Positions 6,490-37,594 of a DNA stretch of 64,000 bases are shown here, one piece after another. This DNA is from Halarcobacter sp. (GTDB lineage Bacteria > Campylobacterota > Campylobacteria > Campylobacterales > Arcobacteraceae). The notes below the pieces were generated by a model. It was not told the origin of the DNA and made no database searches. It saw nothing but the letters and a program-made list of their open reading frames with translations. The translations under genes were made by a program, and so were the position numbers. Numbering within the stretch: the first letter of the stretch is position 1; each line of letters begins with the position of its first letter. The stretch is from positions 248,001-312,000 of the forward strand of contig NZ_OY781470.1 in the NCBI RefSeq assembly GCF_963676935.1. Reading direction: 5' to 3'.

Positions 6490-8292
6490 ATGGAAATAAA
6501 AGATAAAAATTTAGAAGAATTAGAAACAATTTGTTCAGATATTAGAAATAGAATTATTGATGTAGTATCAAGAAAAGGTGGACATTTTTCTTCAACACTA
6601 GGTGCTGTTGAATTAACAGTTGCTATGCATAAAGTGTTTGATGTAAAAAAAGACCCTTTTATTTATGATGTATCACATCAATGTTATCCTCACAAACTGA
6701 TAAATGGAAGATGGGATGAATTTGAAACTATTAGACAATTTGGTGGTTTAAGTGGTTTTACAAAACCTAAAGAGTCCGATGCAGATTATTTTGTAGCAGG
6801 GCATAGTTCAACATCTATCTCTTTGGCAGTGGGTGCAGCTAAAGCTATAAAGCTTAAGGGTGAAGATAGAATCCCAGTTGTTATGATTGGGGATGGTTCT
6901 ATGACAGCAGGAATGGTTTATGAGGCATTAAATGAGTTAGGAGATAGAAAATATCCTGTTGTGATAATCCTTAATGACAATGAGATGTCAATAGCTAAAC
7001 CTATTGGTTCTATATCTAAATATTTATCAAAAATATTAGCAGGTAAATTCTATCAAGGCTTTAGAGATAGAGTTGATAGAAATATTGTGCAAAAATTGCC
7101 AAGTGGCGCAACTTATATAGCTAAAAAAATTGAAGAGAGTATGAAGCTAATAACTCCTGGAATAATTTTTGAAGAGATGGGTGTGGATTATATTGGACCA
7201 ATTGATGGACATGATCTTGAAGAGGTTATTGAAACTTTAGAGATAGCAAAAGGTATAAATAAACCTGTAATTGTCCATGCAAGAACAGTAAAGGGTAAAG
7301 GTTATAAACATGCAGAAGGTCAACAAGAACATTGGCATGGTGTAGGCCCTTTTAATGTAGAAGATGGAACTTTTGCTAAAAAAGCATCCGCAAAATCAGC
7401 TACAGCAGTATTTGCTGATGCTTTATTAGATTTAGCAAGAAAACATGAAAATGTAGTTGGTGTAACAGCAGCAATGCCAAGTGGTACAGGTATTGATAAA
7501 CTTATGAAAGAGTTTCCTACTAGATTTTGGGATGTAGCAATTGCTGAACAACATGCAGTTACTTCAATGGCAGCTATGGCTAAAGAGGGTTTTAAACCTT
7601 TTATTACAATTTATTCAACATTTTTACAAAGAGGTTTTGATCAAATAGTTCATGATGTTTGTCTTTTAGGATTACCTGTCGTTTTTGCTATTGATAGAGC
7701 AGGAATTGTAGGAAATGATGGAGAGACCCATCAAGGTGCCTTTGATATCTCATATTTAAGGTTTTTACCAAATATGATACTTTGTGCTCCAAGAGATGAT
7801 AAAACTTTAGAATACTCTTTAGAATTTGCATATGAAGCAAATAAACCCTGTGCAATAAGATACCCAAGAGGAGCTTTTGCTAACTTGCCATTTGAAGCTA
7901 GTAAATTTGAGCTAGGGAAGGCAGAACTTCTAAAAGAGGGAGAATCAAATAAACTATTTATTGGTTATGGTGCAGGTGTAAACAGAGCCTGTGAAACTGA
8001 AAAACTTCATAATGATGACATCGCTATATTAGATTTAAGATTTGTAAAACCTTTAGATGAAGATACTTTAAAATCTTTAGCCTGTAAATATAATGATTGG
8101 TATATTTTTAGTGATTCTCAAAAACAAGGTGGAGTAGCAAGTGCTATTTTAGAGTTTTTAAATAAAGAAAAAATCTGTGTGGATGTTACATCTTTTGAAT
8201 ATGAAGATAAGTTTATTGAACATGGTGATACAAAAAAAGTTGAAGAGAGTTTAGGATTAAATCCTAATCAATTAGTTCAAAAGATAAAATAG
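6490..8292 (+). CDS. dxs: 1-deoxy-D-xylulose-5-phosphate synthase
   Basis: TPP-dependent first step of the MEP isoprenoid pathway, joining pyruvate and glyceraldehyde 3-phosphate. The 600-residue chain is near the family length. Visible motifs are HVAGHSSTSIS-type VAGHSSTS, the TPP-binding GDGSMTAGMVYEALN ending at ILNDNEMSI, the pyrimidine-domain AIAEQHAVTSMAAMA, and DRAGIVGNDGETHQGAFD. The pathway partner ispE is at 47331. The TAG stop lies in a hairpin shared with the convergent secretin gene. Confidence 0.97.
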   Translation: MEIKDKNLEELETICSDIRNRIIDVVSRKGGHFSSTLGAVELTVAMHKVFDVKKDPFIYDVSHQCYPHKLINGRWDEFETIRQFGGLSGFTKPKESDADYFVAGHSSTSISLAVGAAKAIKLKGEDRIPVVMIGDGSMTAGMVYEALNELGDRKYPVVIILNDNEMSIAKPIGSISKYLSKILAGKFYQGFRDRVDRNIVQKLPSGATYIAKKIEESMKLITPGIIFEEMGVDYIGPIDGHDLEEVIETLEIAKGINKPVIVHARTVKGKGYKHAEGQQEHWHGVGPFNVEDGTFAKKASAKSATAVFADALLDLARKHENVVGVTAAMPSGTGIDKLMKEFPTRFWDVAIAEQHAVTSMAAMAKEGFKPFITIYSTFLQRGFDQIVHDVCLLGLPVVFAIDRAGIVGNDGETHQGAFDISYLRFLPNMILCAPRDDKTLEYSLEFAYEANKPCAIRYPRGAFANLPFEASKFELGKAELLKEGESNKLFIGYGAGVNRACETEKLHNDDIAILDLRFVKPLDEDTLKSLACKYNDWYIFSDSQKQGGVASAILEFLNKEKICVDVTSFEYEDKFIEHGDTKKVEESLGLNPNQLVQKIK

Positions 8293-8308
8293 TAGTTAAA
8301 AACTACTA
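8290..8308. terminator. Bidirectional hairpin shared by dxs and rcpA
   Basis: The bases tagtagtt-aaa-aactacta form a perfect 8-base-pair stem with a 3-base loop. The left arm begins with the dxs stop TAG, and the right arm ends with the mirrored TAG stop of the secretin gene on the other strand. It is AT-rich and has only short T runs, so termination may be partial. Confidence 0.6.
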
Positions 8309-9820
8309 TTCATATCCTAAGATTTCATTAATTCTTTTTTGTTGTCTTTCTTTTGGTGTTAGTTGTTTTTGAGTATTGATTTTAGTAGCAGATTTTTTTT
8401 CTTTTACTGATTCAGTAGAATCTTTTTCATCATTAATAAAAACCTCTTTTTTATATTTCGAAGTGTTTAATATTTTATCTTTCGTATTTTGATAGAGTGT
8501 ATTTTGATTATTATTTGAAGGGTCTACAATTTCAGGTGTGATAAAAAATACAAGTTCACTTTTACCCTCTTTGAAAGCTTTACTAGTAAATATAAAACCA
8601 AGTATAGGAATATCACCTAAAAATGGTATTTTATCAACATCATATGAGTTTTCATTACTTACAAGACCACCTAAAACTATAGTAGCTCCATTTTTTGCTA
8701 ATACATTGGTTACAATTTCTTTTTCTGTAAAACTTGGTATATCATCAACCATATTTGTCCAGTCAATTTCTGTCGAACTTGTTTTTAATTCTAAATCAAC
8801 ATAATTATTTTTCATTACATTCTTAGCTTTTATATCAAGTTGAAGTCCATATTTAACCTCTTCTAAATCAGTTGAAGGAATACCCTCTGCTGTTGTTGTT
8901 TGTGTTTTAATTCTTATAGTTCCCCCAGCATGGAAAGTTGCTTCTTTATTTTCCAAAGTTATTAACGTTGTTTCATCCAAAATGTTTGCAACACCTTCTG
9001 ATTCTAAATATTGTAGTATCATTGAAGTATTAAAATTCTGACTTAAAAAGTTTGCAGCACTAGTAAGCCCCCCAGTTAGAGTCAATGCATTAGACATAAT
9101 TTTATCAAGGGCACCAGTTATATCACCATTAAGTTGTGAAATATGACCAAATTCACTAGATGGATAATAAGTATATTCCCCTTCTTTTTCTTCGGTTGTT
9201 GCATAGTTTCTAACAGAAACAGCCCAATTATTTTTTAAATCTATACCATCATCATTATTTATTTCAACTGCATAAAGTTTAACACGAATCATTTTTGAGG
9301 GAGTTGATGTTTCAATCATATCAACAAGCTTTTCTTCAGTTTTAATACCAGCTTTTTTAAAGGTATCAATTACTAAATCTTTTTCTCTATAATCTTTTAC
9401 ATAACCTTTTAAAATAATTGTATCATTTGCTTGTTCAACAATTAAGTTTGGATAAGTAGCTTTTACAATGGAAATAATTGTATCTAGATTTTGCATAATA
9501 CTAAAGTTTATATGGATTGAATCTCCATTTTCTAGGGTTACTATTGCCCCCTCATTACCAATGTTTTTACCCAATATTTTTAGTTTTGTTAAGGGAGCTT
9601 CAAGACTATCTATAAAATCAGCACTTATATTTTCGCTATTCGTTAATTGGATATTTTTAATTCTAGAATCAAATATCAAAGTTCTATAATTATTAAGTGG
9701 TAAATATATTGTACTATCATGAAAATCTTTTTGATATATCACTTTATCATTAATATCATATGCAAAACTAAAAGATGTTGTGCATAAAAATAAAAATAAA
9801 ACCTTAAAAAAATACTTCAT
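8306..9820 (-). CDS. rcpA: Tad/Flp pilus outer-membrane secretin (RcpA/CpaC type)
   Basis: Forms the outer-membrane channel of the Tad pilus. The 504-residue protein starts with a signal peptide (about 1-20, ending SFA-Y). A BON-like region follows around residues 115-165 (TIILKGYVKDYREKDLV), then a secretin domain with ITLENKEATFHAGG, the long VGLQLDI-type strand region, and the signature VDKIPFLGDIPILGFIF near residue 410. After the secretin domain comes a charged Lys/Gln-rich tail of about 60 residues. It is the last gene of the Tad operon, ten bases after the TadE-like gene, and converges on dxs. Confidence 0.92.
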   Translation of the reverse strand: MKYFFKVLFLFLCTTSFSFAYDINDKVIYQKDFHDSTIYLPLNNYRTLIFDSRIKNIQLTNSENISADFIDSLEAPLTKLKILGKNIGNEGAIVTLENGDSIHINFSIMQNLDTIISIVKATYPNLIVEQANDTIILKGYVKDYREKDLVIDTFKKAGIKTEEKLVDMIETSTPSKMIRVKLYAVEINNDDGIDLKNNWAVSVRNYATTEEKEGEYTYYPSSEFGHISQLNGDITGALDKIMSNALTLTGGLTSAANFLSQNFNTSMILQYLESEGVANILDETTLITLENKEATFHAGGTIRIKTQTTTAEGIPSTDLEEVKYGLQLDIKAKNVMKNNYVDLELKTSSTEIDWTNMVDDIPSFTEKEIVTNVLAKNGATIVLGGLVSNENSYDVDKIPFLGDIPILGFIFTSKAFKEGKSELVFFITPEIVDPSNNNQNTLYQNTKDKILNTSKYKKEVFINDEKDSTESVKEKKSATKINTQKQLTPKERQQKRINEILGYE

Positions 9821-9830
9821 TATGAAACTC

Positions 9831-10268
9831 CTATTCTGTGTATGTTATAGTTAGTGTACATGTAACTGTTCCTGAGCCACTTTCGTTGAAAACTGCTCGC
9901 CTACTAACAATTTGTTGATCATAAAAAGATACTCCACTAGCTAATTGAGTGGAGAAAATAACTTGATAATTTGGTGGAACAATTGAGTTATCAGTATTAC
10001 AAACAACATCACCTGCAGCCACTACATCTATACCATTTACTGACATATTATTAACTCTTGTTACAAAATCATTTATAGTAATAGCACCTGTACCATTAGT
10101 AGAGATTAATCTAGCTCCATAATCACTTATAGCATCCATATTATCTTTCACCCTAGCGATTTTTGAATAATTAATAACAAAAAAGAAAAAAGTAACAAAA
10201 CCTATAAACATTACCATCCATAGTAATATATTTTCAATATAAGCTTTTTTCAAATCTTTTTTTTTCAT
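9831..10268 (-). CDS. TadE-like minor pseudopilin
   Basis: A 145-residue protein with a very short basic N-terminus, then a 20-residue hydrophobic helix (about 14-34, ILLWMVMFIGFVTFFFFVI), then a polar domain. This layout is that of TadE/TadF minor pilins. The N-terminus KKAYIEN aligns with the EKGAMDK of the Flp pilin and the RKAFIDQ of the large adhesin-like protein in the same locus, which suggests cleavage by the same prepilin peptidase. Two cysteines (in VVCNTD and TVTCTLT) could form a disulfide in the exported domain. The start overlaps the rcpC stop by four bases. Confidence 0.7.
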   Translation of the reverse strand: MKKKDLKKAYIENILLWMVMFIGFVTFFFFVINYSKIARVKDNMDAISDYGARLISTNGTGAITINDFVTRVNNMSVNGIDVVAAGDVVCNTDNSIVPPNYQVIFSTQLASGVSFYDQQIVSRRAVFNESGSGTVTCTLTITYTE

Positions 10269-11416
10269 TTTTTCAATTCTTTATATTCAGAAAAAGATAT
10301 CTCTTTTACATCTTTTTTATTTACATAACTACCATCACATAAAATATACCAATTTGGTTGTATTTTAGATCTGCTAACATATGACATTATATAATTTTTA
10401 TGTATCTTACTGTTGATTTTTGCTCTATATGATGGTTTATTTCTTAAATAAATATTATTTGATAAACCAATTAATAAATTATCAGTTTTTGAACATTCAT
10501 TTTTGTACCCTTCAGTAATAGTAGCTTCTTTAACTGTTTTTTTATCTTTATTATCTGCATAAGATATAGTAGCAGTTTTTGTAGAAATTTTATCTTTTGG
10601 ACTATACCATTTAATTGGATAAGTAGGTTTTCTATAAACTACTGGTTTAACAAGTTTTTTCTTTTTAACTACTTTTTTAGGTTTTTCTTTTTCTTTTTCA
10701 TTTTCTTCTTCAAGCTTTGATTTAACCATCCAAAGTTGTTTACCTTTATTATAATCATCAATTAGTTTTAATAATACTTTTTCTTTTATGTCAAGAACAA
10801 TTTCATTAGCTTTTACATTAACTATTTCTTCAACTTGTTGTTTTTTTACAAGTTTTTTAATTTTTTTCTTAAAAATTGCTTTTTCTGATTCTAATCCTTC
10901 ACTTAAAAAACCTAAAACTTTAATATTTTTTGCTATATACTGTACAGCATATTTATTTGTATCTTGCCCTTTGGGATAAACTGATATTATTTTTATAATA
11001 TCATTAGGTTCTAAAGAAAAGTTTGGATTTTCAAAAAGTGTCATTGACATATTGTAACTATTGTATTTAAAATCTAAAGATTTTTCTTTAATAATTTCAA
11101 TTTTATTTGAAAGTTTTTCTTTTAAAAAAGCTTCGTTCTTATATATTGTTTCTTTAGCATATTTACCAAGGATTTCTTGTTTTAACAAGGGTTTTGTTAA
11201 AACAAATTGTCTTGCAATAACAGTTTGTTTAATATGATTCTCACCAATAAGAGTATCTTTATTAATTGTGTCTTTTGCAACAAAAACGTTTACTAATCTA
11301 TTATTGTCTTTTGCAACTTTTTCTTTCTCTTTATAAAAATAGAAAGATATAGCGATTGCTGATAGTAATAAAGATACTAAAACTAAAATAACTGCTAACT
11401 GTTTGTCAAACTTCAT
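10265..11416 (-). CDS. rcpC: RcpC/CpaB-like Tad pilus assembly protein with C-terminal SH3-like domain
   Basis: Periplasmic, membrane-anchored Tad assembly factor of 383 residues. A transmembrane helix lies at about 7-27, a SAF domain at 41-100 (VFVAKDTINKDTLIGENHI), and an RcpC/CpaB core at about 105-230. A Lys/Glu-rich linker (236-262) leads to an SH3b-like domain at about 313-375 (NIYLRNKPSYRAKINSKIHK, then NWYILCDGSYV). Ordinary CpaB proteins are about 250-300 residues and lack this tail, which may contact peptidoglycan. It lies between tadC and the TadE-like gene. Confidence 0.82.
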   Translation of the reverse strand: MKFDKQLAVILVLVSLLLSAIAISFYFYKEKEKVAKDNNRLVNVFVAKDTINKDTLIGENHIKQTVIARQFVLTKPLLKQEILGKYAKETIYKNEAFLKEKLSNKIEIIKEKSLDFKYNSYNMSMTLFENPNFSLEPNDIIKIISVYPKGQDTNKYAVQYIAKNIKVLGFLSEGLESEKAIFKKKIKKLVKKQQVEEIVNVKANEIVLDIKEKVLLKLIDDYNKGKQLWMVKSKLEEENEKEKEKPKKVVKKKKLVKPVVYRKPTYPIKWYSPKDKISTKTATISYADNKDKKTVKEATITEGYKNECSKTDNLLIGLSNNIYLRNKPSYRAKINSKIHKNYIMSYVSRSKIQPNWYILCDGSYVNKKDVKEISFSEYKELKK

Positions 11417-11425
11417 ACTTTTCCT

Positions 11426-12277
11426 TTACATTCCTAAACCTAATTCTAATTCACCAGCCATCATAGGGAAAATTATAAATGCTCCTAATGCTGGTAAAAC
11501 AAATACAAATAAAACTAAAATCAGATACATATTAAGAGTATTAACTTTACCTTTAATTTTATAAAATTTTTCTTGCCTCATCTCATCTGATTGGGTAGAA
11601 AATATATTCTTAACTCCAATTCCTGCTTCTTCACTCAATATTAAAAAATCTACAATTTTTCCTAAATCATCAGAGTCAACTCTTCTTTTTAAATTTTCAT
11701 AAGCTTTTTTTGTTGTGTAATTTGTCATCTCATATTCCAATATGGCTATCTCTTTTAATAACTCCTCATCTAAGATACCATGTGCTCTAGTTGATACTGT
11801 AAAAAAAGCGTTTTTTAAACCACCACCAGCCTCTAAAATTACATTAATTAAATCTAAGAAAACACCTAGATCATTGTTTATTTTTTCTGCTCTTTCATTT
11901 TTTGATATATAAATATATATCTTCCCTCCAAAAATTATTAATAGTATACCAATTATTATGCCAATAACACCAATTAAGGTATTAAATAGTATAGGAAAAG
12001 ATATACCAATAATTAATCCAATTAAAGCAAAGACAAGTTTACCTTCATTGTATTCTTTTTTAGTTAGACCTGCTTGAATTAATTTAAAATAGAATTCTTT
12101 ATCATCCTTTTCATCTGAACTTTTATTTTTTACATCTTTTTGCTGATCGATGATTGCTAAGGCATCAAGTTTTGATAATTGTACAATTTGTTTTTTTTGT
12201 CCTTGTGAATCGTAAATATACCATGCTGCAATAACTATAACTATAACTATAACAGGTAGAAAAAATATTAAATCCAT
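11426..12277 (-). CDS. tadC: Tad pilus inner-membrane platform protein TadC
   Basis: One of the two T2SS-F-like polytopic proteins that couple the TadA ATPase to pilus assembly. The protein has 283 residues, with an N-terminal helix (3-19), a paired helix block at about 84-126, the conserved cytoplasmic T2SSF region (VFLDLINVILEAGGGLKNAFFTV and LGKIVDFLILSEEAGIGVKNIF), and a C-terminal helix near 245-270. The start overlaps the last base of tadB, which implies coupled translation and a TadB-TadC pair. Confidence 0.88.
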   Translation of the reverse strand: MDLIFFLPVIVIVIVIAAWYIYDSQGQKKQIVQLSKLDALAIIDQQKDVKNKSSDEKDDKEFYFKLIQAGLTKKEYNEGKLVFALIGLIIGISFPILFNTLIGVIGIIIGILLIIFGGKIYIYISKNERAEKINNDLGVFLDLINVILEAGGGLKNAFFTVSTRAHGILDEELLKEIAILEYEMTNYTTKKAYENLKRRVDSDDLGKIVDFLILSEEAGIGVKNIFSTQSDEMRQEKFYKIKGKVNTLNMYLILVLFVFVLPALGAFIIFPMMAGELELGLGM

Positions 12278-13206
12278 TATTTAACCTTAGTTAGTAGATT
12301 GTTTACAAATAAACCAAATGCAACCCAAACTGCAATAAAAAACATTTGAATCTGACCTTCATTACTTCCAAAAAAATGTCTATCTAAAACACCATTTAAT
12401 GAACTATCCATCATCTCATAAGTAAAAATTACCAGTCCTATAATCATGTAACTACCAACTTTTATCTCTTTTGTTGATGAAGTAATCTCTTGTTTTATTT
12501 CCCCTTGATCATGAAGTGTTTTTCTTAGTTTTTCTAATGTATTAGAAAACTTACCTCCTGATTGTCTACCAATTGAGATAGTTAGATAAAAAATTCTTAA
12601 TTCTTTTGACTCAACTAATTTAAACATTTTTTCAAAAGCTTTATTTTCACCAATAATATCTTTTTCCATAAGATAGATATTAAAAGTATCTTTTGTAAAT
12701 TTAGATTTTGAAGTCATAACAGCTTTAGTTAGTGATTGTTCAAATCCTACACCACTTTTCATCATACTAGTAACTTTATCAATAATTACTTTTAGTCCAT
12801 AATTAAACTCTTCTTGTCTATTTGAAATAATTTTTTTCAAAACTAAAAGTGGGAAAAAAGCAAATACAATCCAACTAATTGCGAAGACAACAGGATTTGT
12901 AATAGCAAAATTTACAAATGTTGCGGCTAGAAAACCAAAGCCTATTGATATAAATATAAAAATTGGTTCGGAAAGAGGAGATAAAAATCCTGCATAAGAA
13001 AGTTTTTTACCTAACCAATTTCTATCTTTTTTAAATAAACTATTTCTTTTTTTTGCTTCAGCTAAAATCTCATTTTGATCATTTGATAATTTTTTAATAA
13101 TTTTATTTTGTTTATTAAAATTTATTAAATAGTTATATATTAATACAATACTAGTTATTGTTAAAATTGGTATAACTGCTGATAAAATAAGAAATTGAAT
13201 ATCCAT
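12277..13206 (-). CDS. tadB: Tad pilus inner-membrane platform protein TadB
   Basis: The 309-residue T2SS-F family partner of TadC. It has an N-terminal helix (about 5-25), two central helices (about 82-125), the cytoplasmic T2SSF motif VTSMMKSGVGFEQSLTKAV and LTISIGRQSGGKFSNTLEKL, and two C-terminal helices. The gene starts two bases after the tadA stop and shares its last base with tadC. In the Tad machine TadB and TadC form the inner-membrane platform for pilin extraction. That assignment rests on order and domain pattern. Confidence 0.88.
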   Translation of the reverse strand: MDIQFLILSAVIPILTITSIVLIYNYLINFNKQNKIIKKLSNDQNEILAEAKKRNSLFKKDRNWLGKKLSYAGFLSPLSEPIFIFISIGFGFLAATFVNFAITNPVVFAISWIVFAFFPLLVLKKIISNRQEEFNYGLKVIIDKVTSMMKSGVGFEQSLTKAVMTSKSKFTKDTFNIYLMEKDIIGENKAFEKMFKLVESKELRIFYLTISIGRQSGGKFSNTLEKLRKTLHDQGEIKQEITSSTKEIKVGSYMIIGLVIFTYEMMDSSLNGVLDRHFFGSNEGQIQMFFIAVWVAFGLFVNNLLTKVK

Positions 13207-13208
13207 TC

Positions 13209-14828
13209 CTAATAATCCCTACTTATTTTTTGGAAATGTGGCCATTTATGGAATAGTTTTGGATCATTTCTTAAGAAAATATCTAAAAATTCATCTTCCC
13301 ATCCACACATTTTGTTTGGTAAATCTTTTTCTAATTCTTCTATTAACATTGACCTTGGCATTTCAAACTCTTTATCAAAAATAGAAAGATCAATATCTAC
13401 TCCAAACATATTCATTTGAGAAACAGTTCTAGTTGGAGTTGAAACAACTTCAAATGTTCCTTTTGTTTTAGTCATATCACTTGTATCTCTCTTAAATTCA
13501 AAGATATTGTTTAATGAAACAACTGTACCATCTTCAATTCTTTTTTCAACTTCTGAAACAGTGATAACTTTTCTTGTTCCATCAGGGAATCTAACTAATT
13601 GAATGATAATATCAATAGCTGAAACTATTTGTGCCCTAATAAAATTAATATTAGCACTAGGTCTCGCTTCTAAATACATGTTTTCAATTCTAACTAAAGC
13701 TTCTTTTGTATTATCAGCGTGGACTGTAGTCATTGAACCAGGATGCCCTGTATTCATAGCATTAAGCATAACTACAATCTCTCCACCTCTACACTCCCCA
13801 ACTATGATTCTTCTTGGAGATGACCTAAGAGCAGATCTTAATAAAAAATCAAGAGTTATAGCACCTTTCCCCTCTTCATTTGCCATTCTTGCTTCATATT
13901 GTCTAATAGAATTACAAGGCATTTGGGGTTGCATCTCTTTAGTATCTTCAATTACCATAAGTTGTTCATTTGGATCTATAAACCTTGTCATGGCATTTAG
14001 AAATGTAGTTTTACCACTTGATGTACCCCCTGACACAATCATATTACATTTACCTTTAGCAATTTTTAGTAAAAAATAAGCCATTTTGTAATCCATTTGC
14101 CCAGAATCAATAAGTGATTCTAGTAATAATGGCAAGTAATTGAATTTTCTTATTGTTACGCAACTTCCATTATTTGCTGCAATGGGAGGAATTTGAACTT
14201 CTACCCTTGAACCATCTTGTAGTTTACTAGACATAATAGGGTGAGCTTCATCGATTTTTCTATTATTTTCAGCTAACATTTTATCTATAATTTTTCTTAA
14301 TTCATCTTCACTTCTAAAAGTAAAAGGTGTTCTTACAGTTTTACCTTTATAGATAATATCTATATAATCTTTTGTATTTATAATAACATCATTTAATCCA
14401 TCTTTTGCAATATCAAAAATAGTTGTTATTGGCCCATATCCAACTATATTGTTTATAATAAATTCTTTTATCTCTTCTAAAATATCTTTTGGTAATTTAC
14501 TTGCTTGTTTAAAAGATAAAATAAATTCAGGTAAAACTTCTTCTAAAGAATCTCTAACTATTTTTTTATCAGATTTTAAATTTATCATAAAAGTATCATT
14601 TATCTCATATGCTATATTTAATAATTTCTCATTCAAATAAATTTTTGGAAAATCTAGAATTTGATTTTCTGCTTTTTTTCTTTTTACTTTTTCAATTTTC
14701 TCTTCAATATTATCTTCAAAAACAATTTCTGATTCATCTTTTTCTTCTTCTTCATTATACGCAAAAGATTGTTTTTTTATCTCTTTCTTTTGTTCTTCTT
14801 CAGTAATAAGATTTCTTAAATTTCTCAA
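13209..14828 (-). CDS. tadA: Tad pilus assembly ATPase TadA/CpaF
   Basis: Cytoplasmic VirB11-like secretion ATPase that powers Flp pilus assembly. Its length of 539 residues is longer than common TadA because of an acidic/lysine-rich N-terminal segment (about 10-55). The nucleotide site is complete: Walker A GGTSSGKT at 267-274, the Asp box (VIEDTKEMQ), Walker B-like RRIIVGECRGGE, and the His box GHPGSMTTVHADNT. TadZ ends two bases upstream and tadB starts two bases downstream. This gene is the firmest marker that the locus is a Tad system. Confidence 0.95.
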   Translation of the reverse strand: MRNLRNLITEEEQKKEIKKQSFAYNEEEEKDESEIVFEDNIEEKIEKVKRKKAENQILDFPKIYLNEKLLNIAYEINDTFMINLKSDKKIVRDSLEEVLPEFILSFKQASKLPKDILEEIKEFIINNIVGYGPITTIFDIAKDGLNDVIINTKDYIDIIYKGKTVRTPFTFRSEDELRKIIDKMLAENNRKIDEAHPIMSSKLQDGSRVEVQIPPIAANNGSCVTIRKFNYLPLLLESLIDSGQMDYKMAYFLLKIAKGKCNMIVSGGTSSGKTTFLNAMTRFIDPNEQLMVIEDTKEMQPQMPCNSIRQYEARMANEEGKGAITLDFLLRSALRSSPRRIIVGECRGGEIVVMLNAMNTGHPGSMTTVHADNTKEALVRIENMYLEARPSANINFIRAQIVSAIDIIIQLVRFPDGTRKVITVSEVEKRIEDGTVVSLNNIFEFKRDTSDMTKTKGTFEVVSTPTRTVSQMNMFGVDIDLSIFDKEFEMPRSMLIEELEKDLPNKMCGWEDEFLDIFLRNDPKLFHKWPHFQKISRDY

Positions 14829-14830
14829 TT

Positions 14831-16417
14831 TTATTCCTTATTTAAAAATGAAAATATACTTTTTTTAGCTTTTTCTTTAGAAGTAGTTTCACTTATAAAT
14901 TCTTTTGTTTTAAGGATATCTTCTAAAGTTTTTACAAATGGTGAATCTTGCGAAATTTGAGAAGCTAGTTCACAATAATTCCAACATTTACCTAAAGTTT
15001 GATAATCATTTGGAATCTTTAGATAACTTAACTTATCTTCCTTACTACTTGTATTCATTATAGAGTCAAAATCGGAAGATGAAATTTCATTTAATGAATT
15101 AACTCTATTTACTATAAAATTAACTTTATCCTTTAATCCAGCTCTTTTCATAAGTGAATAAAAAGTTTTAAGTTTAGATACATGAGGAAGAGTCATCTCT
15201 GTTAAAACCCAAATCTCATTTACTAAATCATAAATAGTACTTTTAAGTGATGTTGCATCAGATATACCTGCATCTATAATAATATAATTAAAATGCTCAC
15301 TAGCTTTTAAAATATAATCCAGCATCTTCTCTATAAATATTTCTTTTTCAAGTATATCTCTATCAATATGTTTTTGGATACCATTTATTCCATAAAAATT
15401 TTCTCTTATTTTTACAAGTCCTACTTCCATATTTTTTTTTATATCAAAATCATTCATATTTACTAAATCAATAATTGAATAGTTTGGTATGGGATTCTGA
15501 GATAAAAATAGATTACTAATAGCTTTTGTTGTAGCTAAATCTATAAATAGTACATTTTTTGATGGATTATTTCTTGCAATAATATCTGCTGCATTCATTG
15601 AAATAGTTGTTGCTCCAGTTCCCCCGGAAATTCCACTTACTGCAATAATTTTGTTATCATATTTATTTTTATTAATTAGTTTATATTTAGTTTCTAATAT
15701 TATATTTTTTATAAGTTCAGGAGAAAATTCATCTATTGAAACATAATTTTCAATATTTAGTTTTCCACAGGTTAGTGAAAGATTATGATTATTTGGGCCA
15801 ATGACTATAATAAACTCATTGAATTTTCTTAAAAGTTCACTATCATCATTTATTAATTCACCATTTTGTATTGTATAGATAATAATATTTTTTGAGTTTT
15901 TCATATTTAGAATATCAGAAATTTTTGTAATATCATAAATAACATTTATCTCTGCATTTAATAAAATATCCAAATTTGTTTGTAGTTTATTTGCAAATTT
16001 TGTTGTGTTTTTATCTGTTACTATAAATATATTTAATGGAGTATTTTGAGATAGTAAATCTTTTTCAATCTCAAATATTTTTCTTAGTGCAATTCTTGAT
16101 TTTTTTAATAACTCTTTTAATACTTGTCTATACCAAATTTTTCTATTAAATGTAAGTTTACCAAAGATTATATCTCCATCTTTTAATATTATAGAGTATT
16201 TATTATTTATAAAATTAATATCATCTTCTATTACTTCATATCCATTTACAGTAAAACCATAAATAAAATTGTTATATTTAAAATCATATTTTAAAAAAGT
16301 AAGTTTTTGAATGTTTGAGATTAGTACAAATAGTTGTAATATCTCAATTACATTCTCTTTTCTAATATCTAAAGCACCTTGAATATTTGAATATTCTTGA
16401 TATGTTTTATAATCCAT
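14831..16417 (-). CDS. tadZ: Tad pilus localisation ATPase TadZ/CpaE
   Basis: MinD/ParA-family protein that positions Tad machines. The 528-residue chain has an N-terminal region of unknown fold (1 to about 125), a receiver-like domain without clear phosphorylation motifs (about 128-250), and a ParA-like ATPase from about 258. The deviant Walker A reads SGISGGTGATTISMNAAD, with no lysine in the usual GKT position, as in several TadZ proteins. DAGISD later marks the switch region. It lies between the adhesin-like gene and tadA. Confidence 0.88.
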   Translation of the reverse strand: MDYKTYQEYSNIQGALDIRKENVIEILQLFVLISNIQKLTFLKYDFKYNNFIYGFTVNGYEVIEDDINFINNKYSIILKDGDIIFGKLTFNRKIWYRQVLKELLKKSRIALRKIFEIEKDLLSQNTPLNIFIVTDKNTTKFANKLQTNLDILLNAEINVIYDITKISDILNMKNSKNIIIYTIQNGELINDDSELLRKFNEFIIVIGPNNHNLSLTCGKLNIENYVSIDEFSPELIKNIILETKYKLINKNKYDNKIIAVSGISGGTGATTISMNAADIIARNNPSKNVLFIDLATTKAISNLFLSQNPIPNYSIIDLVNMNDFDIKKNMEVGLVKIRENFYGINGIQKHIDRDILEKEIFIEKMLDYILKASEHFNYIIIDAGISDATSLKSTIYDLVNEIWVLTEMTLPHVSKLKTFYSLMKRAGLKDKVNFIVNRVNSLNEISSSDFDSIMNTSSKEDKLSYLKIPNDYQTLGKCWNYCELASQISQDSPFVKTLEDILKTKEFISETTSKEKAKKSIFSFLNKE

Positions 16418-16436
16418 TTAATCCCTTTTTATCTTA

Positions 16437-18851
16437 CTACTGTAATTCAACTATAAAATTATCTATATATAATACTTCATTTGTACTTGAAACATAGATT
16501 GATAATGATACACCAAGTATTCCATCAGAATCAGTTCTTCCTTCAAGTGAATATGATTTTGATCCATAATTAATAGATCCATAGTAATTACCAAATGATT
16601 CTCTATCAACAAGTAAGTCATTGTTTAAATAAACAGTAAAATAGTCTTGACTACTACCCCAATCTTCCCATCCACCAACAAAGTTTAAATCAAAACTAAC
16701 TGTAACATCTTTATTCGCAAAACTTGGTCCAAAATTAAAAAATCTTCCTGTTGTTTGCCAACGTTTTGTTCTTTTTGCTTGGATTTTTAATTTACCTTCA
16801 TTTGAATCGTATGAATCTCTTATCCATGAACCATATGTAGTATCAAAGCCTTCTTCATCCCTATCAAATGTTAAATTAAAAATTCGTAAATCCACTTCAT
16901 TTATTATTTTTACATTATAACTACTTGTAGTACTCTCTTTACCATCGCTTACTGTAACATTTATTGTTAAAGTACTGCCCACATATCCATTTGGTATTTT
17001 AGTATTTGATGTTATAAGACCATTTTGATTTATACTAAAATAAGAACTAACATTAGTGGTACCATTTAGATATACAGTTATTGAATAGGTTAAATTATCT
17101 CCATCAGCATCTGTAAAGTAAGGACTCACATCAAAACTATAATAGGTATCCTCTTTAACTGTACCATCGGGAATTTCACCTGCTACGGGTTTAGAATTAT
17201 TATCTGTTACTTCAATACTAAATGCTGGTAAGAAAGCTGATAGTTGACCATCTGTTACTGAAATGACAATATTTTCATATAATCCTAAATCTGAACTTGT
17301 GGGAGTTCCTATAAGTTCTCCTGAGTTTTGATTAAAAGAAAGCCAAGAGGGTTTGTTTGAAATACTAAAAGTTAGTATATCATTATCAGGATCAGAAGCT
17401 GTTGGAGTAAAACTGTAATAATTATCTATGTTTATAGTTGAAACAGGTGTACCATAAATAGTAGGTGCATCATTTACTTCATTAATAGTTACATCACAAT
17501 AACCAAACCCTACATCACCACTATTGTCTGTAGCAGTAAATGTTATCCTATCTGTACCATAAAAGTTTAATGCAGGAGTGTAAGTTAATGTTCCATTGTC
17601 ATTTATTATAGTAGTACCATTTTGGGAAGAAGCTTCTGTACTATAAATTGAACCATCTACATCAACAGCATTCCATCCTATCATAGAAGTTGGTGTATCC
17701 TCATTTATAGTTATTGGACAACCTGTAATTGTTACTACTGGATTTTGATTATTCCCACAATTCAATAAAACCACTCCATCTTGACCTACCGTAAAATCAT
17801 TTAGCCGATTAGGTACAGCTATCCTTGTACTATCTAGTACCAAGTCGTTAAAGTCTTGGTCTCCACCGCCATCTAAATCTTCCATTGAATATCTATATTC
17901 ATTATTTGGATCAGTAGTATAATCTATATCATTAGTTGGATCTAAGTCATTATTTAAACTATCTGCATATTCGATAAATTGTTGGTACTTATCATTTGCA
18001 TCTCCAGATAAATTATTTATGTAGTTGTTATAAGTATCCCAAATACTCTTAGGGATAATTTGAAAATGGGCATAATTACCATCTCCATTTAAACTTTCGT
18101 GTTCAAAATATATGTGAGTATCATTGACAGTTTTATTATTTAGTGTTACTGTAGGATTACTAGTTGCACCCATACAGTGATTCATTGTAATTGAGTCGGT
18201 AACAGCAGGATAATCATTGTAACCATTTTTAAAAGTATTGTATCCATCTGATATAATAAAAGTAAAAGTTGGTGGAGTTGTAAATTGTGAACCTATAGAA
18301 TCACCTTCATTAGGCCTTTTTGAATTTTCCAAAATTAGTTGAGGATTTTGTACGCAACCATTATTATCTAAGGTATAAGTACCAACCATATTAGTGTAAC
18401 CAGCATTTTCACCACCAAAAGTCAAGTTTACATTTAATGGAGTTGTAACTCCTTCTTGAGCAGAAAATGGACCAATTGTAAATGAATCTTTATCCATAAA
18501 CTTATACCAAAAAGTTTGGTAATCATATGCTCCAAATGTAGTTCTAATAGTGTCAGGTTGTAAATCTCCAGTTGTATCAAGCCAAGTATAATTTACTAAA
18601 CCATTATTAAGAAGAAAATTACCTAAATTTGTTTGTCTTAGAATATTATTATTTATATCTTGTGCTGTACACATATCCATTTGTAAAGCGTAATATTCTG
18701 AAATAGAGTGAGATGAAGCTCTAGCTAAAGATTGCAAATCCTCCATTTTATTTCTTATTATAGTTTCATCACTAACAGTTGCTACAAAAAATACAACACC
18801 CATTAACAAAAGAAAGCCAAAAAACATTTGGTCAATAAAAGCTTTTCTCAT
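16437..18851 (-). CDS. Large pseudopilin-like adhesin of the Tad locus (DUF4114, Ig-like and jelly-roll-like regions)
   Basis: An 804-residue protein in the TadG position. The N-terminus RKAFIDQ followed by a hydrophobic helix (about 8-26) resembles the other pilin-like proteins of the locus. Then come a DUF4114-like region (about 195-345, motif MEDLDGGGDQDFNDLVL), a cadherin/tandem-95-like domain (about 370-460), a He_PIG-type domain (about 465-548), another Ig-like domain (about 553-652), and a jelly-roll-like C-terminal region (about 655-804). DxDxD-type acidic loops suggest calcium binding. It lacks the vWA domain of classical TadG. A pilus-borne or pilus-tip adhesin is the best inference. 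Confidence 0.75.
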   Translation of the reverse strand: MRKAFIDQMFFGFLLLMGVVFFVATVSDETIIRNKMEDLQSLARASSHSISEYYALQMDMCTAQDINNNILRQTNLGNFLLNNGLVNYTWLDTTGDLQPDTIRTTFGAYDYQTFWYKFMDKDSFTIGPFSAQEGVTTPLNVNLTFGGENAGYTNMVGTYTLDNNGCVQNPQLILENSKRPNEGDSIGSQFTTPPTFTFIISDGYNTFKNGYNDYPAVTDSITMNHCMGATSNPTVTLNNKTVNDTHIYFEHESLNGDGNYAHFQIIPKSIWDTYNNYINNLSGDANDKYQQFIEYADSLNNDLDPTNDIDYTTDPNNEYRYSMEDLDGGGDQDFNDLVLDSTRIAVPNRLNDFTVGQDGVVLLNCGNNQNPVVTITGCPITINEDTPTSMIGWNAVDVDGSIYSTEASSQNGTTIINDNGTLTYTPALNFYGTDRITFTATDNSGDVGFGYCDVTINEVNDAPTIYGTPVSTINIDNYYSFTPTASDPDNDILTFSISNKPSWLSFNQNSGELIGTPTSSDLGLYENIVISVTDGQLSAFLPAFSIEVTDNNSKPVAGEIPDGTVKEDTYYSFDVSPYFTDADGDNLTYSITVYLNGTTNVSSYFSINQNGLITSNTKIPNGYVGSTLTINVTVSDGKESTTSSYNVKIINEVDLRIFNLTFDRDEEGFDTTYGSWIRDSYDSNEGKLKIQAKRTKRWQTTGRFFNFGPSFANKDVTVSFDLNFVGGWEDWGSSQDYFTVYLNNDLLVDRESFGNYYGSINYGSKSYSLEGRTDSDGILGVSLSIYVSSTNEVLYIDNFIVELQ

Positions 18852-18876
18852 TGTGAAACCTTTTTATTATATTATA

Positions 18877-19314
18877 TTACATTATATTATAAATGTCCAT
18901 AAACTCGTTTATCTTTACTATAATTACAGATAAAAAAATAGCAGGAGCCATTGGAGCTACTCTTCTTTTTTTTATCTTTTGGTAATAAAGTAAAAAAATT
19001 GTTTGAACTATACCCGTTACTATTAAGAAAATTGGTATAGAAATTGGTTGTAGATATAAAGTTATTACTAAAATATATTTTATATCTCCGCCACCTAAAA
19101 TCATTTTAGGCATTAAAAGAATAATTGTAACAAAAAAAAGTAAAAATATTATTAAAATAATAAAAGAATAAATTATTAGTTTATTTTCTAGAAAACCAAA
19201 AATTATTAGAAATATTGAAAGTGTGACTATCATCACATTAGGAATTTTATATCTTGTAAAGTCTATATAAGATATAAAAAATGAAAAAATAAAAAATGAT
19301 AAATGAAAAATCAT
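18877..19314 (-). CDS. tadV: Tad prepilin peptidase TadV/CpaA
   Basis: Aspartyl inner-membrane peptidase that removes the leader from Flp and Tad pseudopilins. The 145-residue protein is the short type without the N-methylation domain. The two catalytic aspartates are in YIDFTRYKIPN (near residue 17) and GGGDIKYI (near residue 78), and several hydrophobic helices span the chain. It lies after flp, separated from it by two hairpins, and before the adhesin-like gene. Confidence 0.9.
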   Translation of the reverse strand: MIFHLSFFIFSFFISYIDFTRYKIPNVMIVTLSIFLIIFGFLENKLIIYSFIILIIFLLFFVTIILLMPKMILGGGDIKYILVITLYLQPISIPIFLIVTGIVQTIFLLYYQKIKKRRVAPMAPAIFLSVIIVKINEFMDIYNIM

Positions 19315-19322
19315 AATAGTAT

Positions 19323-19351
19323 GTAATATGAGTAAAAATTACTCATATTAC
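19323..19351 (-). other. 13-base-pair hairpin between flp and tadV
   Basis: The arms gtaatatgagtaa and ttactcatattac are perfect inverse complements around a 3-base loop. No strong U run follows on the minus strand, so it may be an mRNA-stabilising or attenuating structure that leaves more flp than tadV message. Confidence 0.6.
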
Positions 19352-19363
19352 TAAAGTAGAGTA

Positions 19364-19382
19364 TGATTAGTAAAACTAATCA
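19364..19382 (-). other. Hairpin overlapping the flp stop codon
   Basis: tgattagt and actaatca pair perfectly around aaa. The TGA stop of flp is the first codon of the hairpin on the minus strand. It lies 12 bases from the larger hairpin, so the pilin message ends in two tandem stems. Confidence 0.55.
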
Positions 19383-19580
19383 GTTACCACCATTTGCATC
19401 ATCTATTGCACCTTGTATTGCCTGACCAGCACTATCTTGTACACCAGCACTTTCATCAGTAATCCATTGGTTAAGCCCTACAACTGCACCAACACCAACA
19501 ATAACTAAAAGAAGTGTTACAAGAATTTTATCCATTGCACCTTTTTCAGACTTTAATCTTCGTTTTAAGAATTCTAACAT
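19380..19580 (-). CDS. flp: Flp-family major pilin (atypical processing site)
   Basis: A 66-residue prepilin and the probable main subunit of the Tad pilus. The leader MLEFLKRRLKSEKG is basic and ends in glycine 14; the mature form would start AMDKILV and continue into a hydrophobic helix (about 19-36). The classical Flp Glu-Tyr at +5/+6 is missing, and the first acidic residue is Asp at +3. The C-terminal part is polar and acidic. A strong aaggag lies before the ATG. It is the first gene of the locus, behind a 173-base AT-rich spacer that must hold the promoter. Confidence 0.85.
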   Translation of the reverse strand: MLEFLKRRLKSEKGAMDKILVTLLLVIVGVGAVVGLNQWITDESAGVQDSAGQAIQGAIDDANGGN

Positions 19581-21656: not shown

Positions 21657-22583
21657 TTGAATATATTATTAATAATTTTAGGGAAAATCTTTCCTTTATA
21701 TATAACAATACTTGCAGGCTATCTTTTAACAAGATTTTTTAAAATAAAAAGGGAACAAATAGCTTTTTTATTAGTGTATATCTTAGGACCTGTTGTTATA
21801 TTTTTTGCAGTTTTATCTATTGAGATAAATTTTCAATTGATATTTTTGCCACTTTTTATATTTTTATTTGGTACTACTATCGCTTTTTATATATTAAAAA
21901 AGTATAAAAATGAATGGAATGATGCCAGCGTTAATACCTTGGCTTTTACTTGTGGAACAGGAAACACTGGATATTTTGGTATCCCTTTAGCTATGATTTT
22001 ATTAGAACCAAATGCTGCAAATATTTTTATTTTTGGAACATTGGCTTCTTTATTATATGAAAATACTACAGGGTTTTATGTAACTGCAAAGGGAAGTTTT
22101 ACAGCAAGAGAATCTATAATGAAGATTTTAAAATTGCCATTACTTTATGCTTTTATTGCAGGAGTTATTTTTAATATACTTGGATTTAGAACACCTGAAT
22201 TTATTGTTCCATATTTTGAAAATTTTAAATGGGCTTATGGTTTATTAGGTATGATGATGCTTGGTATGGGGATGAAAGGGTTTAATATCCATGAGGATTT
22301 TGATAGAAAGTATATAAGAATCTCTTACTTTTTTAAATTTATATTTTGGCCAGGGGTTATTTTGGCAATAATATTTATAGATAAAACATTTATAAACTTT
22401 TTAAATGATGAGATATATAAAGTTATGTTTTTATTTTCAATAGTACCTTTAGCTGGAAATACAGTAACCCTAGCAGTTTTACTAAAAGCAAAACCTGAAA
22501 AAGCTTCCTTTACTGTACTTCTTTCAACTTTAATTTCTATAGTTTATATACCTGTAGTTTTAGCTTTGTATGGTGGATTTTAA
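21657..22583 (+). CDS. AEC-family (auxin efflux carrier-like) permease
   Basis: Inner-membrane transporter of 308 residues with about ten helices. The TTG start at 21657 has aggaa about seven bases upstream. The pattern LAGYLLTRFFKIKREQIA, LAFTCGTGNTGYFGIPLA and the C-terminal PLAGNTVTLAVLLKAKPEKA is that of AEC proteins, which in bacteria often export or import small organic acids such as malate. It probably forms a unit with the preceding permease. The stop codon overlaps that of the convergent NlpC/P60 gene in ttaa. Confidence 0.8.
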   Translation: MNILLIILGKIFPLYITILAGYLLTRFFKIKREQIAFLLVYILGPVVIFFAVLSIEINFQLIFLPLFIFLFGTTIAFYILKKYKNEWNDASVNTLAFTCGTGNTGYFGIPLAMILLEPNAANIFIFGTLASLLYENTTGFYVTAKGSFTARESIMKILKLPLLYAFIAGVIFNILGFRTPEFIVPYFENFKWAYGLLGMMMLGMGMKGFNIHEDFDRKYIRISYFFKFIFWPGVILAIIFIDKTFINFLNDEIYKVMFLFSIVPLAGNTVTLAVLLKAKPEKASFTVLLSTLISIVYIPVVLALYGGF

Positions 22584-23185
22584 TTAATCACTCTTTTTGA
22601 AGTCCAATAGGCTTTTTTATAAAAAGGTTTATTTAGTTTTGTAACTTTTACCCCTTTTATTGAAGCGTGCATAAACTCTCCATGTCCTATATAGATACCC
22701 ACGTGTCTGTCAATTTTTCCTGTTTTGAAAAATATTAAGTCTCCAAGTTTTAGTTCAGCTTTTTTTACTGTTTTCCCAACTTTAACTTGTGTTCTAGTAG
22801 TTCTTGGAATTTTTAAATTAAATTTTTCTTTAAAAACTTTTTGGGTAAAAGCTGAACAGTCGATACCTTTTTTTGTATCTCCCCCAAACTTATATTTTAC
22901 ACCCTTCCATTCATTATAAAACTCCATTAAGGCTGCTTCTACATGGGCTAGTTGTTTTTGTTTTTCAAGAACTTTTTTAGGTTTTTGTAAAATCTTTTTA
23001 TATTCATTGTTTGAAATAATCTCTTGGTAATCTAAATTGGTAATTAAATTCTTGTCTAAATTTGGATTTGTCTCAAGTACAGCATATTCACTCATATCGC
23101 TAGCTACTACATATTTTTGGTTATTTGATGCACAACCTGTTATAACTATTGATATTAATAAAAGTAACAATAAGTTTTTTATCAT
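22580..23185 (-). CDS. NlpC/P60-family lipoprotein (first of a tandem pair)
   Basis: Predicted peptidoglycan endopeptidase of 201 residues. The signal peptide ends in the lipobox VITGC with lipidated Cys18. A region of about 65 residues precedes the NlpC/P60 domain (about 85-200). That domain has Cys110 in GIDCSAF, His161 in RHVGIYIG and His173 in EFMHAS. It is immediately downstream of a shorter paralogue, 16 bases apart, and probably cotranscribed with it. It acts in the periplasm, cleaving stem-peptide bonds. Confidence 0.88.
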   Translation of the reverse strand: MIKNLLLLLLISIVITGCASNNQKYVVASDMSEYAVLETNPNLDKNLITNLDYQEIISNNEYKKILQKPKKVLEKQKQLAHVEAALMEFYNEWKGVKYKFGGDTKKGIDCSAFTQKVFKEKFNLKIPRTTRTQVKVGKTVKKAELKLGDLIFFKTGKIDRHVGIYIGHGEFMHASIKGVKVTKLNKPFYKKAYWTSKRVIN

Positions 23186-23201: not shown

Positions 23202-23699
23202 TTAGTATAATACTCTTTTTATTTTCCAGAGATGCTTTGAATAATATGGGTTATTCAGCCTAGAGATAATAACCCCTTTTTTTGTGGATACATGCATAAA
23301 TTTTCCATTTTTTAAATATATGCCTACATGGTTTGTTTTAAATCCTGTTTTGAAGAATATTAAATCACCAGTTGCCAATTTATCTAGTTCAACCTCTTTA
23401 CCTAATTTTTTTTGTAAAGTAGTTGTTCTTGGAATATCTATAAAAAGTTGCTCTTTAAATGTTCTTTGAACAAATGCTGAACAATCTATTCCACTTTTTG
23501 AATAGCCACCATATTTATATTTTACACCTCTCCAATCTCTATATTGTGTTAGTAAATTATCATAAATTTTGTTATAATCTAAATTATTCGAGAGTTTATT
23601 ATACTTATTGTAATCAATATCTGATATAGTTTTTGTACTACATCCTTGAAAGATTAAAATTAGTGTAAAAATAATAAACTTTAAAATAAAACTTTTCAC
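23202..23699 (-). CDS. NlpC/P60-family lipoprotein (second of a tandem pair)
   Basis: A 165-residue paralogue of the neighbouring lipoprotein. The signal peptide ends in IFQGC with lipidated Cys20. The catalytic set is Cys73 in GIDCSAFVQR, His124 in NHVGIYL and His136 in FMHVS. It lacks the longer spacer between lipobox and catalytic domain found in the sister protein. The shared sequence WRGVKYKYGG versus WKGVKYKFGG and IPRTT in both shows a duplication. Confidence 0.87.
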   Translation of the reverse strand: MKSFILKFIIFTLILIFQGCSTKTISDIDYNKYNKLSNNLDYNKIYDNLLTQYRDWRGVKYKYGGYSKSGIDCSAFVQRTFKEQLFIDIPRTTTLQKKLGKEVELDKLATGDLIFFKTGFKTNHVGIYLKNGKFMHVSTKKGVIISRLNNPYYSKHLWKIKRVLY

Positions 23700-36826: not shown

Positions 36827-37594
36827 TTACTTTTTAATTATTTCTATAGTATCTGTTGGATTATATTTCATTGGAATATGATCAGCTCTTTCAATACCTA
36901 TTTTAATATAAGCTAAAAGTGTAACTGCACCTAAAGTTAAGAAAAAGATACTTACATATTTTTTTGCTTTAAGCATTTTTGTTCTTGTTTCTTTTGGATT
37001 CTCTCCATCAAACCAACCCCATTTCATAGCAGCTCTATATAAACCAATAGAACCATGAAGTTCAACACAGATTAATAAAACCATATATAAAAGCCACATA
37101 TTTTCACTTACAACTCTATGTGCACTTGCATATGGCCCAATATTTTGAGGTTGGGTAAACATTATATATAAGTGAATCATTGCTACAAACATCATAATAA
37201 ATCCACTAATCCATTGAAACATCCACATTGAAGTATCTGTATGTTTCATCATTTTAGAGTGTTCTTTTATTCTTAAGTATGCTTTATATGATGTAGGAAA
37301 TTTTCTTACACCTAAAATTGCATGTACTATAAATATTGCTGTAATTACACCAACAAAAACACTAACAATAATTGGAAGTCCACCATCAAAGATAAAATCT
37401 AATTCAAACATTTTTGTTACAGTGTACATAGTCTTTTCACCAAAAAGAATTGTTGAAACAAAAAACATATGTGCCATCATAAAAATAGCAAGTAGTACAC
37501 CTGAAGCTGTAAGTGCTTTATCTAGTTTTGCAGGAATTCTACTTTTTTTACCTTCTTCATTGATGCCTGTAAAGGCCTCGATAACTTTGTCCAT
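36827..37594 (-). CDS. frdC: Fumarate reductase diheme cytochrome b subunit
   Basis: Membrane anchor that oxidises menaquinol and binds two hemes b. The 255-residue protein has five predicted helices. Four histidines at 42 (MMAHMF), 91 (IVHAIL), 141 (MIHLYI) and 180 (VELHGS) are offset by exactly two from the heme ligands reported for Wolinella succinogenes FrdC (44, 93, 143, 182). This supports a diheme quinol:fumarate reductase. It is the first gene of frdCAB-fum. The SD aaaggag lies before the ATG. Confidence 0.96.

Follow-up and report, generated by a model that had tools for sequence, protein, structure and literature searches.

A divergent Tad pilus operon of Halarcobacter whose three predicted pilins carry an acidic residue at position +3 and no Glu5–Tyr6 pair

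What does an acidic residue do when it recurs three positions beyond the predicted processing site of three non-homologous pilins, where a classical Flp pilin would carry Glu-Tyr at +5/+6? The question is raised by a 64,000-nucleotide stretch of a Halarcobacter sp. genome (contig NZ_OY781470.1, positions 248,001–312,000; hereafter ‘the window’, in whose own numbering positions are given), within which nucleotides 8306–19580 of the minus strand hold what reads, gene by gene, as a Tad (type IVc) pilus operon, complete though divergent. Its ten genes run in a single direction: flp, tadV, a gene for an 804-residue protein, tadZ-like, tadA, tadB, tadC, cpaB-like, tadE-like and secretin (Table 1). 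On balance, though with modest confidence, we believe that the +3 acid of this divergent system serves filament assembly and not cutting, and that the 804-residue protein is a tip pilin bearing an adhesin.

All three N-termini—EKG/AMDKILVTLLL in Flp, KKA/YIENILLWMV in the TadE-like protein and RKA/FIDQMFFGFLL in the 804-residue protein (slash, predicted cut)—were verified, and the feature that a first-pass annotation of this DNA had described for them, a small residue at −1, an acid at +3 and a hydrophobic helix, is both present and conserved in their relatives. When the 60 non-overlapping open reading frames (ORFs) of the window were scanned for a basic N-terminus, a Gly or Ala, an acid and then 14 hydrophobic residues, there were four matches for an acid at +3 and no match for an acid at +5; three of the four are the pilins just named, Flp being listed by the same scan as a +2 match too. 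The fourth (36827–37594), a membrane subunit of succinate dehydrogenase/fumarate reductase, was set aside as a chance match.

Relatives of the operon were grouped by their TadA into lineage A (the Arcobacteraceae type), lineage B (a small group of other Campylobacterota) and lineage C (the f16 group); the counts that follow come from search patterns that presuppose the motif. Flp of lineage A reads G/A[MI]D, with Asp at +3 in 28 of 29 ORFs; the remaining one (L064, 12247–12405) reads MDRIL without a preceding small residue, and was excluded from the tabulation and scored as a miss. The TadE-like protein carries the acid in every case (26/26 in lineage A, as [AG]/x[IV][DE], and 4/4 in lineage B; 30/30 overall), and the large protein in 20 of 26: 20/23 in lineage A, as [AG]/x[ILV][DE], with Asn at +3 in L013 and L062 and Gly in L024, and 0/3 in lineage B, where Val occupies the position each time. 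Motif patterns also served to place the sites of the L015 TadE-like protein (A/YIEQ) and the L065 large protein (A/IIDQ). Second Flp copies retain the motif in L010, L013, L014, L025, L062 and L069 and lack it in L064, and such copies keep the +3 acid at identities as low as 26% over the mature stretch compared. The Flps of lineages B (G/[VI]NGV) and C (G/[ML]SGV) are free of acids throughout positions 1–7 (9/9). In lineage C all three pilins are without an acid near the site, the short equivalent of the large protein reading A[IFL]VP, and two lineage B operons (L028, L031) combine a TadE-like protein that has the +3 acid with a Flp (G/VNGV) and a large protein (A/VIVP, A/MIVP) that do not. 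Some loci are incomplete: the L032 Flp ends at a contig end, and L016, L026, L029 and L033, on short contigs, are without at least one pilin gene.

The TadA proteins themselves form a clade apart from canonical systems. At an E-value of 1e-40 or better, TadA was matched in 27 of the 104 family genomes, in 7 of 149 sampled from the order and in 23 of 397 sampled from the phylum; of these last 23, nine have the canonical type, about 40% identical. A tree built from 56 TadA proteins (26 of lineage A, five of B, six of C, nine canonical from Campylobacterota, group D, and ten from plasmids, group E) sets A, B and C together beyond a long branch that has 100/100 support and separates them from D and E (support for A 98/97, C 98/100, B 83/72). 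Outside Campylobacterota relatives were sought among plasmids and solved structures, the best plasmid TadA among the matches listed being 39.9% identical; since the search beyond the phylum covered these two collections, ‘only in Campylobacterota’ describes this sample.

The pilins divide in the same way. Glu5–Tyr6 is absent from the 37 Flps tabulated for lineages A, B and C and present in all 19 canonical ones, of which nine come from the phylum itself and ten from plasmids of proteobacteria (alpha, beta and gamma classes) and of one actinobacterium. At canonical loci the TadE/TadF-like proteins mostly have Glu5, and most of the TadG N-termini inspected lack it; the position of the acid thus goes with the whole pilin set, +3 in the three pilins of lineage A versus Glu5 in canonical systems. 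Pfam Flp_Fap (PF04964) exceeds its cut-off in none of the 24 genomes of lineages A and C versus all nine canonical D genomes, and with the standard Flp model missing their pilins, Arcobacter relatives probably have more Tad systems than annotation shows. Remote similarity is nonetheless seen by profile: in single hhalign comparisons with canonical Flp, lineage A scores E 2.1e-5 (probability 77%) and lineages B/C E 9.9e-8 (94%), and the TadE-like set scores E 1.3e-5 (80%) against canonical TadE over the region behind the processing site, the lineage C members weakly enough (56%) that their TadE assignment is tentative. The TadE-like protein of the window has no Pfam TadE match, and its model found no solved structure below E 0.4 with Foldseek, the best VIA Z (5.1) being uninformative; Flp had no match among plasmids, and none of the three pilins had one in PHROGs. 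As judged from sequence, then, what is known here is the Tad pilus, and what appears new is the lack of Glu5–Tyr6, the acid at +3 and pilins that Pfam misses; titles and opening parts of abstracts in the open-licence literature on Arcobacter/Campylobacterota Tad and Flp motifs do not describe a +3 acid, which is not proof of its absence.

Where does the acid lie relative to Glu5? Compared without gaps, the Flp helices of lineage A and of B/C score 2.65 at a shift of one residue versus 0.06 unshifted; since their leaders align at the Gly and their helices one residue apart, lineage A Flp would have one extra residue between cut and helix. Lineages B/C against canonical Flp score best unshifted but weakly (0.61 versus 0.56 for the next). 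Chained together, these ungapped scores weakly suggest that D3 corresponds roughly to canonical position 2 and so precedes Glu5 by about a helical turn. A two-residue deletion as the origin of D3 from Glu5 is less favoured: the profile alignment gave the register of the cleavage site, and the ungapped scores did not favour a shift of two.

Few positions in type IV filaments are as well conserved as Glu5, whose function (charge pairing, docking or hydrogen bonding) has been argued from a handful of systems. In Caulobacter the equivalent residues, Glu19 and Tyr20 (+5/+6), bond neighbouring core pilins, and PMC11067988, citing Tomich 2006, describes them as crucial for assembly, not for expression or processing; PMC10191384 describes a salt bridge between Glu5 and an N-terminus, and a tip subunit without Glu5. 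We propose that the +3 acid replaces Glu5 in giving adjacent subunits a buried polar contact close to their N-termini. In such a filament Flp would be the major pilin, the 804-residue protein a large pilin holding its adhesin at or near the tip, and the TadE-like protein a minor pilin; all three would carry class III leaders, with a Gly or Ala before the cut and the adjoining TadV as the most likely enzyme. The displaced acid would then more likely change how the hair packs than how its subunits are cut. Were the acid a core contact, one would expect it in every subunit inserting into the core, and least need of it in the large one that would cap the tip; that the large protein does lose it, as the tip cap described in PMC10191384 lacks Glu5, we count in favour of a role in assembly. 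Saying this, some of our own observations weigh against such a role: with acid-free Flps in lineages B and C the clade apparently can build a filament without such an acid; A1, V7, L9 and L10 of lineage A Flp are as invariant as D3, so that conservation of D3 alone proves no special role; and the helix alignment, itself weak, puts D3 near canonical position 2 and not 5.

A broader form of the proposal, which we regard as plausible but hold tentatively, is that an entire Tad lineage within Campylobacterota has departed from the Glu5 rule, the Arcobacteraceae building their core on a +3 acid carried by every inserting subunit and their sisters having an acid-free major pilin, with the contact changed as a set. 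If so, the clade would be an experiment of nature on the function of Glu5: with the acid elsewhere in all subunits of one group, and sister operons whose major pilin is acid-free, its role becomes testable by comparison.

The 804-residue protein is, by inference, likely to be the pseudopilin that the first-pass annotation had suggested: a basic leader, Gly or Ala at −1 and a hydrophobic N-terminal helix are found in 26 of 26 homologues, the helix is predicted to span residues 2–57 and the gene adjoins tadV. In the predicted model (mean predicted local distance difference test, pLDDT, 79) this helix leads into a beta-rich core, cadherin-like domains and a jelly-roll, in an arrangement made unsure by a predicted template modelling score (pTM) of 0.41. 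Residues 366–651 match cadherins (VIA Z up to 13.0, root-mean-square deviation, rmsd, 9); the jelly-roll (655–804) matches a MAM domain (Z 12.9, rmsd 3.1, 136 residues aligned) and also carbohydrate-binding modules (CBM27, Z 11.0, rmsd 3.7), though a fold in common does not reveal a ligand. Homologues of 314–464 residues consist of helix and core only, some with a weak DUF4114, and five are of about 800–850 residues (window, L061, L012, L014, L064), all of the four scanned having Ig/cadherin-like domains. By analogy with KilN and TadG we favour for it a modular tip pilin whose adhesin can be exchanged, here perhaps a cadherin-like stalk with a jelly-roll at its end. PMC12075869 describes Tad tips as minor-pilin complexes with large variable domains; the KilN/TadG tip pilins of that account (Myxococcus Kil) likewise join a pilin helix to a large variable C-terminal part and have smaller minor pilins alongside. 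Differing from the Kil L-M-N trio as described there, this operon has one TadE-like and one large protein, the latter with cadherin-like and jelly-roll parts and a putative tip location.

Might the acid instead be no contact at all? It could be a lineage inheritance without a role of its own, the polar D-K, E-N or D-Q left after the loss of Glu5 simply marking where the membrane helix ends or aiding insertion; acid-free Flps in the sister lineages, tolerance of Asn, Gly and Val in the large protein and the equal conservation of residues around D3 would all fit. We nevertheless consider this unlikely, since three non-homologous proteins keep Asp or Glu at one position and second Flp copies retain it through extensive divergence.

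A separate matter, compatible with an assembly role for the acid, is whether TadV cuts all three pilins or whether PilD, instead of or alongside it, cuts the minor ones. All 24 of the A/C genomes searched encode two A24 peptidases, one of them of PilD size. The genome of the window also has eight PF07963 pilins above cut-off, reading A, G or S/F-x-x-x-E; these resemble the Tad pilins in their short leaders and differ in having Glu at +5 (FSLME, FTLIE), being presumably PilD substrates, and in that the operon's own pilins lack a PF07963 match. The leader of the large protein, MRKA/F, is much like theirs (MRKA/FSLIE, MKKA/FSLME), and PMC12075869 ties the Myxococcus Tad peptidase KilA to only some tips. 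Against a part for PilD, tadV sits inside the operon, and TadV is needed for maturation of Flp1, TadE and TadF in Actinobacillus, according to the title of Tomich 2006 as cited; we judge the involvement of PilD distinctly unlikely.

Less probable again is that Flp is cut one residue later (KGA/MDK), which would place its acid at +2, leave only the minor pilins at +3 and reduce the common site to an artefact of alignment. The Ala after the Gly is invariant (28/28 tabulated), the one-residue helix offset would pair the Met of KGA/M with the +1 residue of lineages B/C, and Ala is the −1 residue of most minor pilins. The leaders, however, line up on the Gly (KSEKG against KSQKG), Gly stands at −1 in all other Flps (28/28, B/C plus canonical), and Ala at +1 is common among canonical Flps (5/19).

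There remains the suggestion, made by the first-pass annotation, that the local TadV has a variant specificity, reading the +3 acid as part of its recognition site. The GGGD motif of TadV occurs in 30 of 30 sequences of lineages A, B and C and also in three of six plasmid TadVs paired with Glu5 pilins; the first aspartate was read in the 25 sequences whose N-terminal stretch fitted the pattern. The residue after GGGD[IL][KR] is Tyr or Phe in A/B/C and Leu in the six D sequences found, and a further clade-specific PxxPA lies near the C-terminus; a search of solved structures with TadV returned no match at E 1. The predicted covariation of peptidase and pilins amounts, in this sample, to a single lineage split, in which specificity and common descent are inseparable. 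Although tadV shares an operon with all three pilins and its product has clade-specific residues, we give a changed specificity very little credence, since substrates with and without the acid coexist in one lineage B operon, Asn or Gly stands at +3 in three of the 23 lineage A large proteins, the TadV residues do not track the Flp acid, being common to B and C with their acid-free Flps, and PMC11067988 separates roles in processing from those in assembly.

Table 1. Genes of the Tad-type operon, in operon order, with assignments predicted from sequence (aa, amino acids; slash, predicted cut)
Gene or product	Position	Strand	Features
flp, major pilin	19380–19580	−	66 aa; site KG/AMDK, acid at +3, without Glu5–Tyr6
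tadV, short A24 prepilin peptidase	18877–19314	−	145 aa; IDFTRYKIPN and GGGDIKY; PF01478 over cut-off
large tip-pilin candidate	16437–18851	−	804 aa; KA/FIDQ; helix 2–57, beta core, cadherin-like 366–652, jelly-roll 655–804
tadZ-like	14831–16417	−	528 aa; P-loop AAA_31-type domain, below curated cut-offs
tadA, extension ATPase	13209–14828	−	539 aa; TTG start as listed; PF00437
tadB, platform half	12277–13206	−	T2SSF
tadC, platform half	11426–12277	−	T2SSF
cpaB/rcpC-like	10265–11416	−	383 aa; SAF/ChapFlgA region, below curated cut-offs
TadE-like minor pilin	9831–10268	−	145 aa; KA/YIEN; helix 6–58, then beta domain; Cys90 and Cys137 invariant
secretin	8306–9820	−	504 aa; PF00263, E 1.5e-40

Turning to the remaining genes, TadA is closest among solved structures to CpaF (E 2.6e-69, 237 bits; archaeal FlaI, 120 bits), TadB and TadC are adjacent proteins with one PF00482 stretch each, and TadV lacks the N-terminal domain of PilD. 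The CpaB and TadZ identities were helped by their place in the operon, their Pfam/NCBIfam scores being below curated cut-offs. Cys90 and Cys137 of the TadE-like protein, invariant in 27 of 27 aligned proteins, probably form a disulfide in its beta domain. Pfam and NCBIfam recognise no TadD, TadF or TadG among the ten genes; the 804-residue protein possibly fills the role of TadG, and divergence may hide any of the three.

In common with canonical Tad/Flp systems (Caulobacter Cpa, Actinobacillus Tad and the Campylobacterota loci L094–L102), the operon has a CpaF-type ATPase, two half-platforms, TadZ-like and CpaB-like proteins, a secretin, a short A24 peptidase, a short Flp with a class III leader and a TadE-like minor pilin. 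It differs in having no pilin with Glu5–Tyr6, in the acid at +3, in a TadA clade of its own, in a Flp and TadE-like protein unrecognised by Pfam and in the lack of a recognised TadD, TadF or TadG. Flp-like pilins of Gram-positive Tad loci, as described in PMC3244431, also depart from Glu5–Tyr6, being without Tyr6; here Glu5 is gone too and the acid stands at +3.

Loci of the Arcobacteraceae type keep the same gene order, with one locus, L070, lacking the large gene: there (7866–9920) tadV adjoins tadZ with no large pilin gene between, the tip pilin being missing or elsewhere. In L022 (186–3189) large pilin-like genes stand in tandem before tadZ, both reading A/[FV][LI]DQ, possibly as alternative tips. 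The untabulated Flp copy of L064 (minus strand) has a helix after its MDRIL, no Gly/Ala cut site and no common in-frame start codon upstream; it may be degenerate, or may be produced leaderless. Lineage B (L027, L028, L031) has flp on the opposite (minus) strand beyond the secretin gene, and not before tadV. The large-protein equivalent of lineage C (L074, 5662–7722; L092, 9123–11188) is only about 91–93 residues long, hardly more than a pilin helix; after it comes a distinct protein, about 590 residues in length, with a Sec-like N-terminus (the L074 copy without a Pfam match); pilin and adhesin are perhaps split here into two genes. Elsewhere in the window, 22580–23185 and 23202–23699 (minus strand) encode a neighbouring pair of mutually similar, lipoprotein-like proteins that by eye have the look of NlpC/P60 hydrolases.

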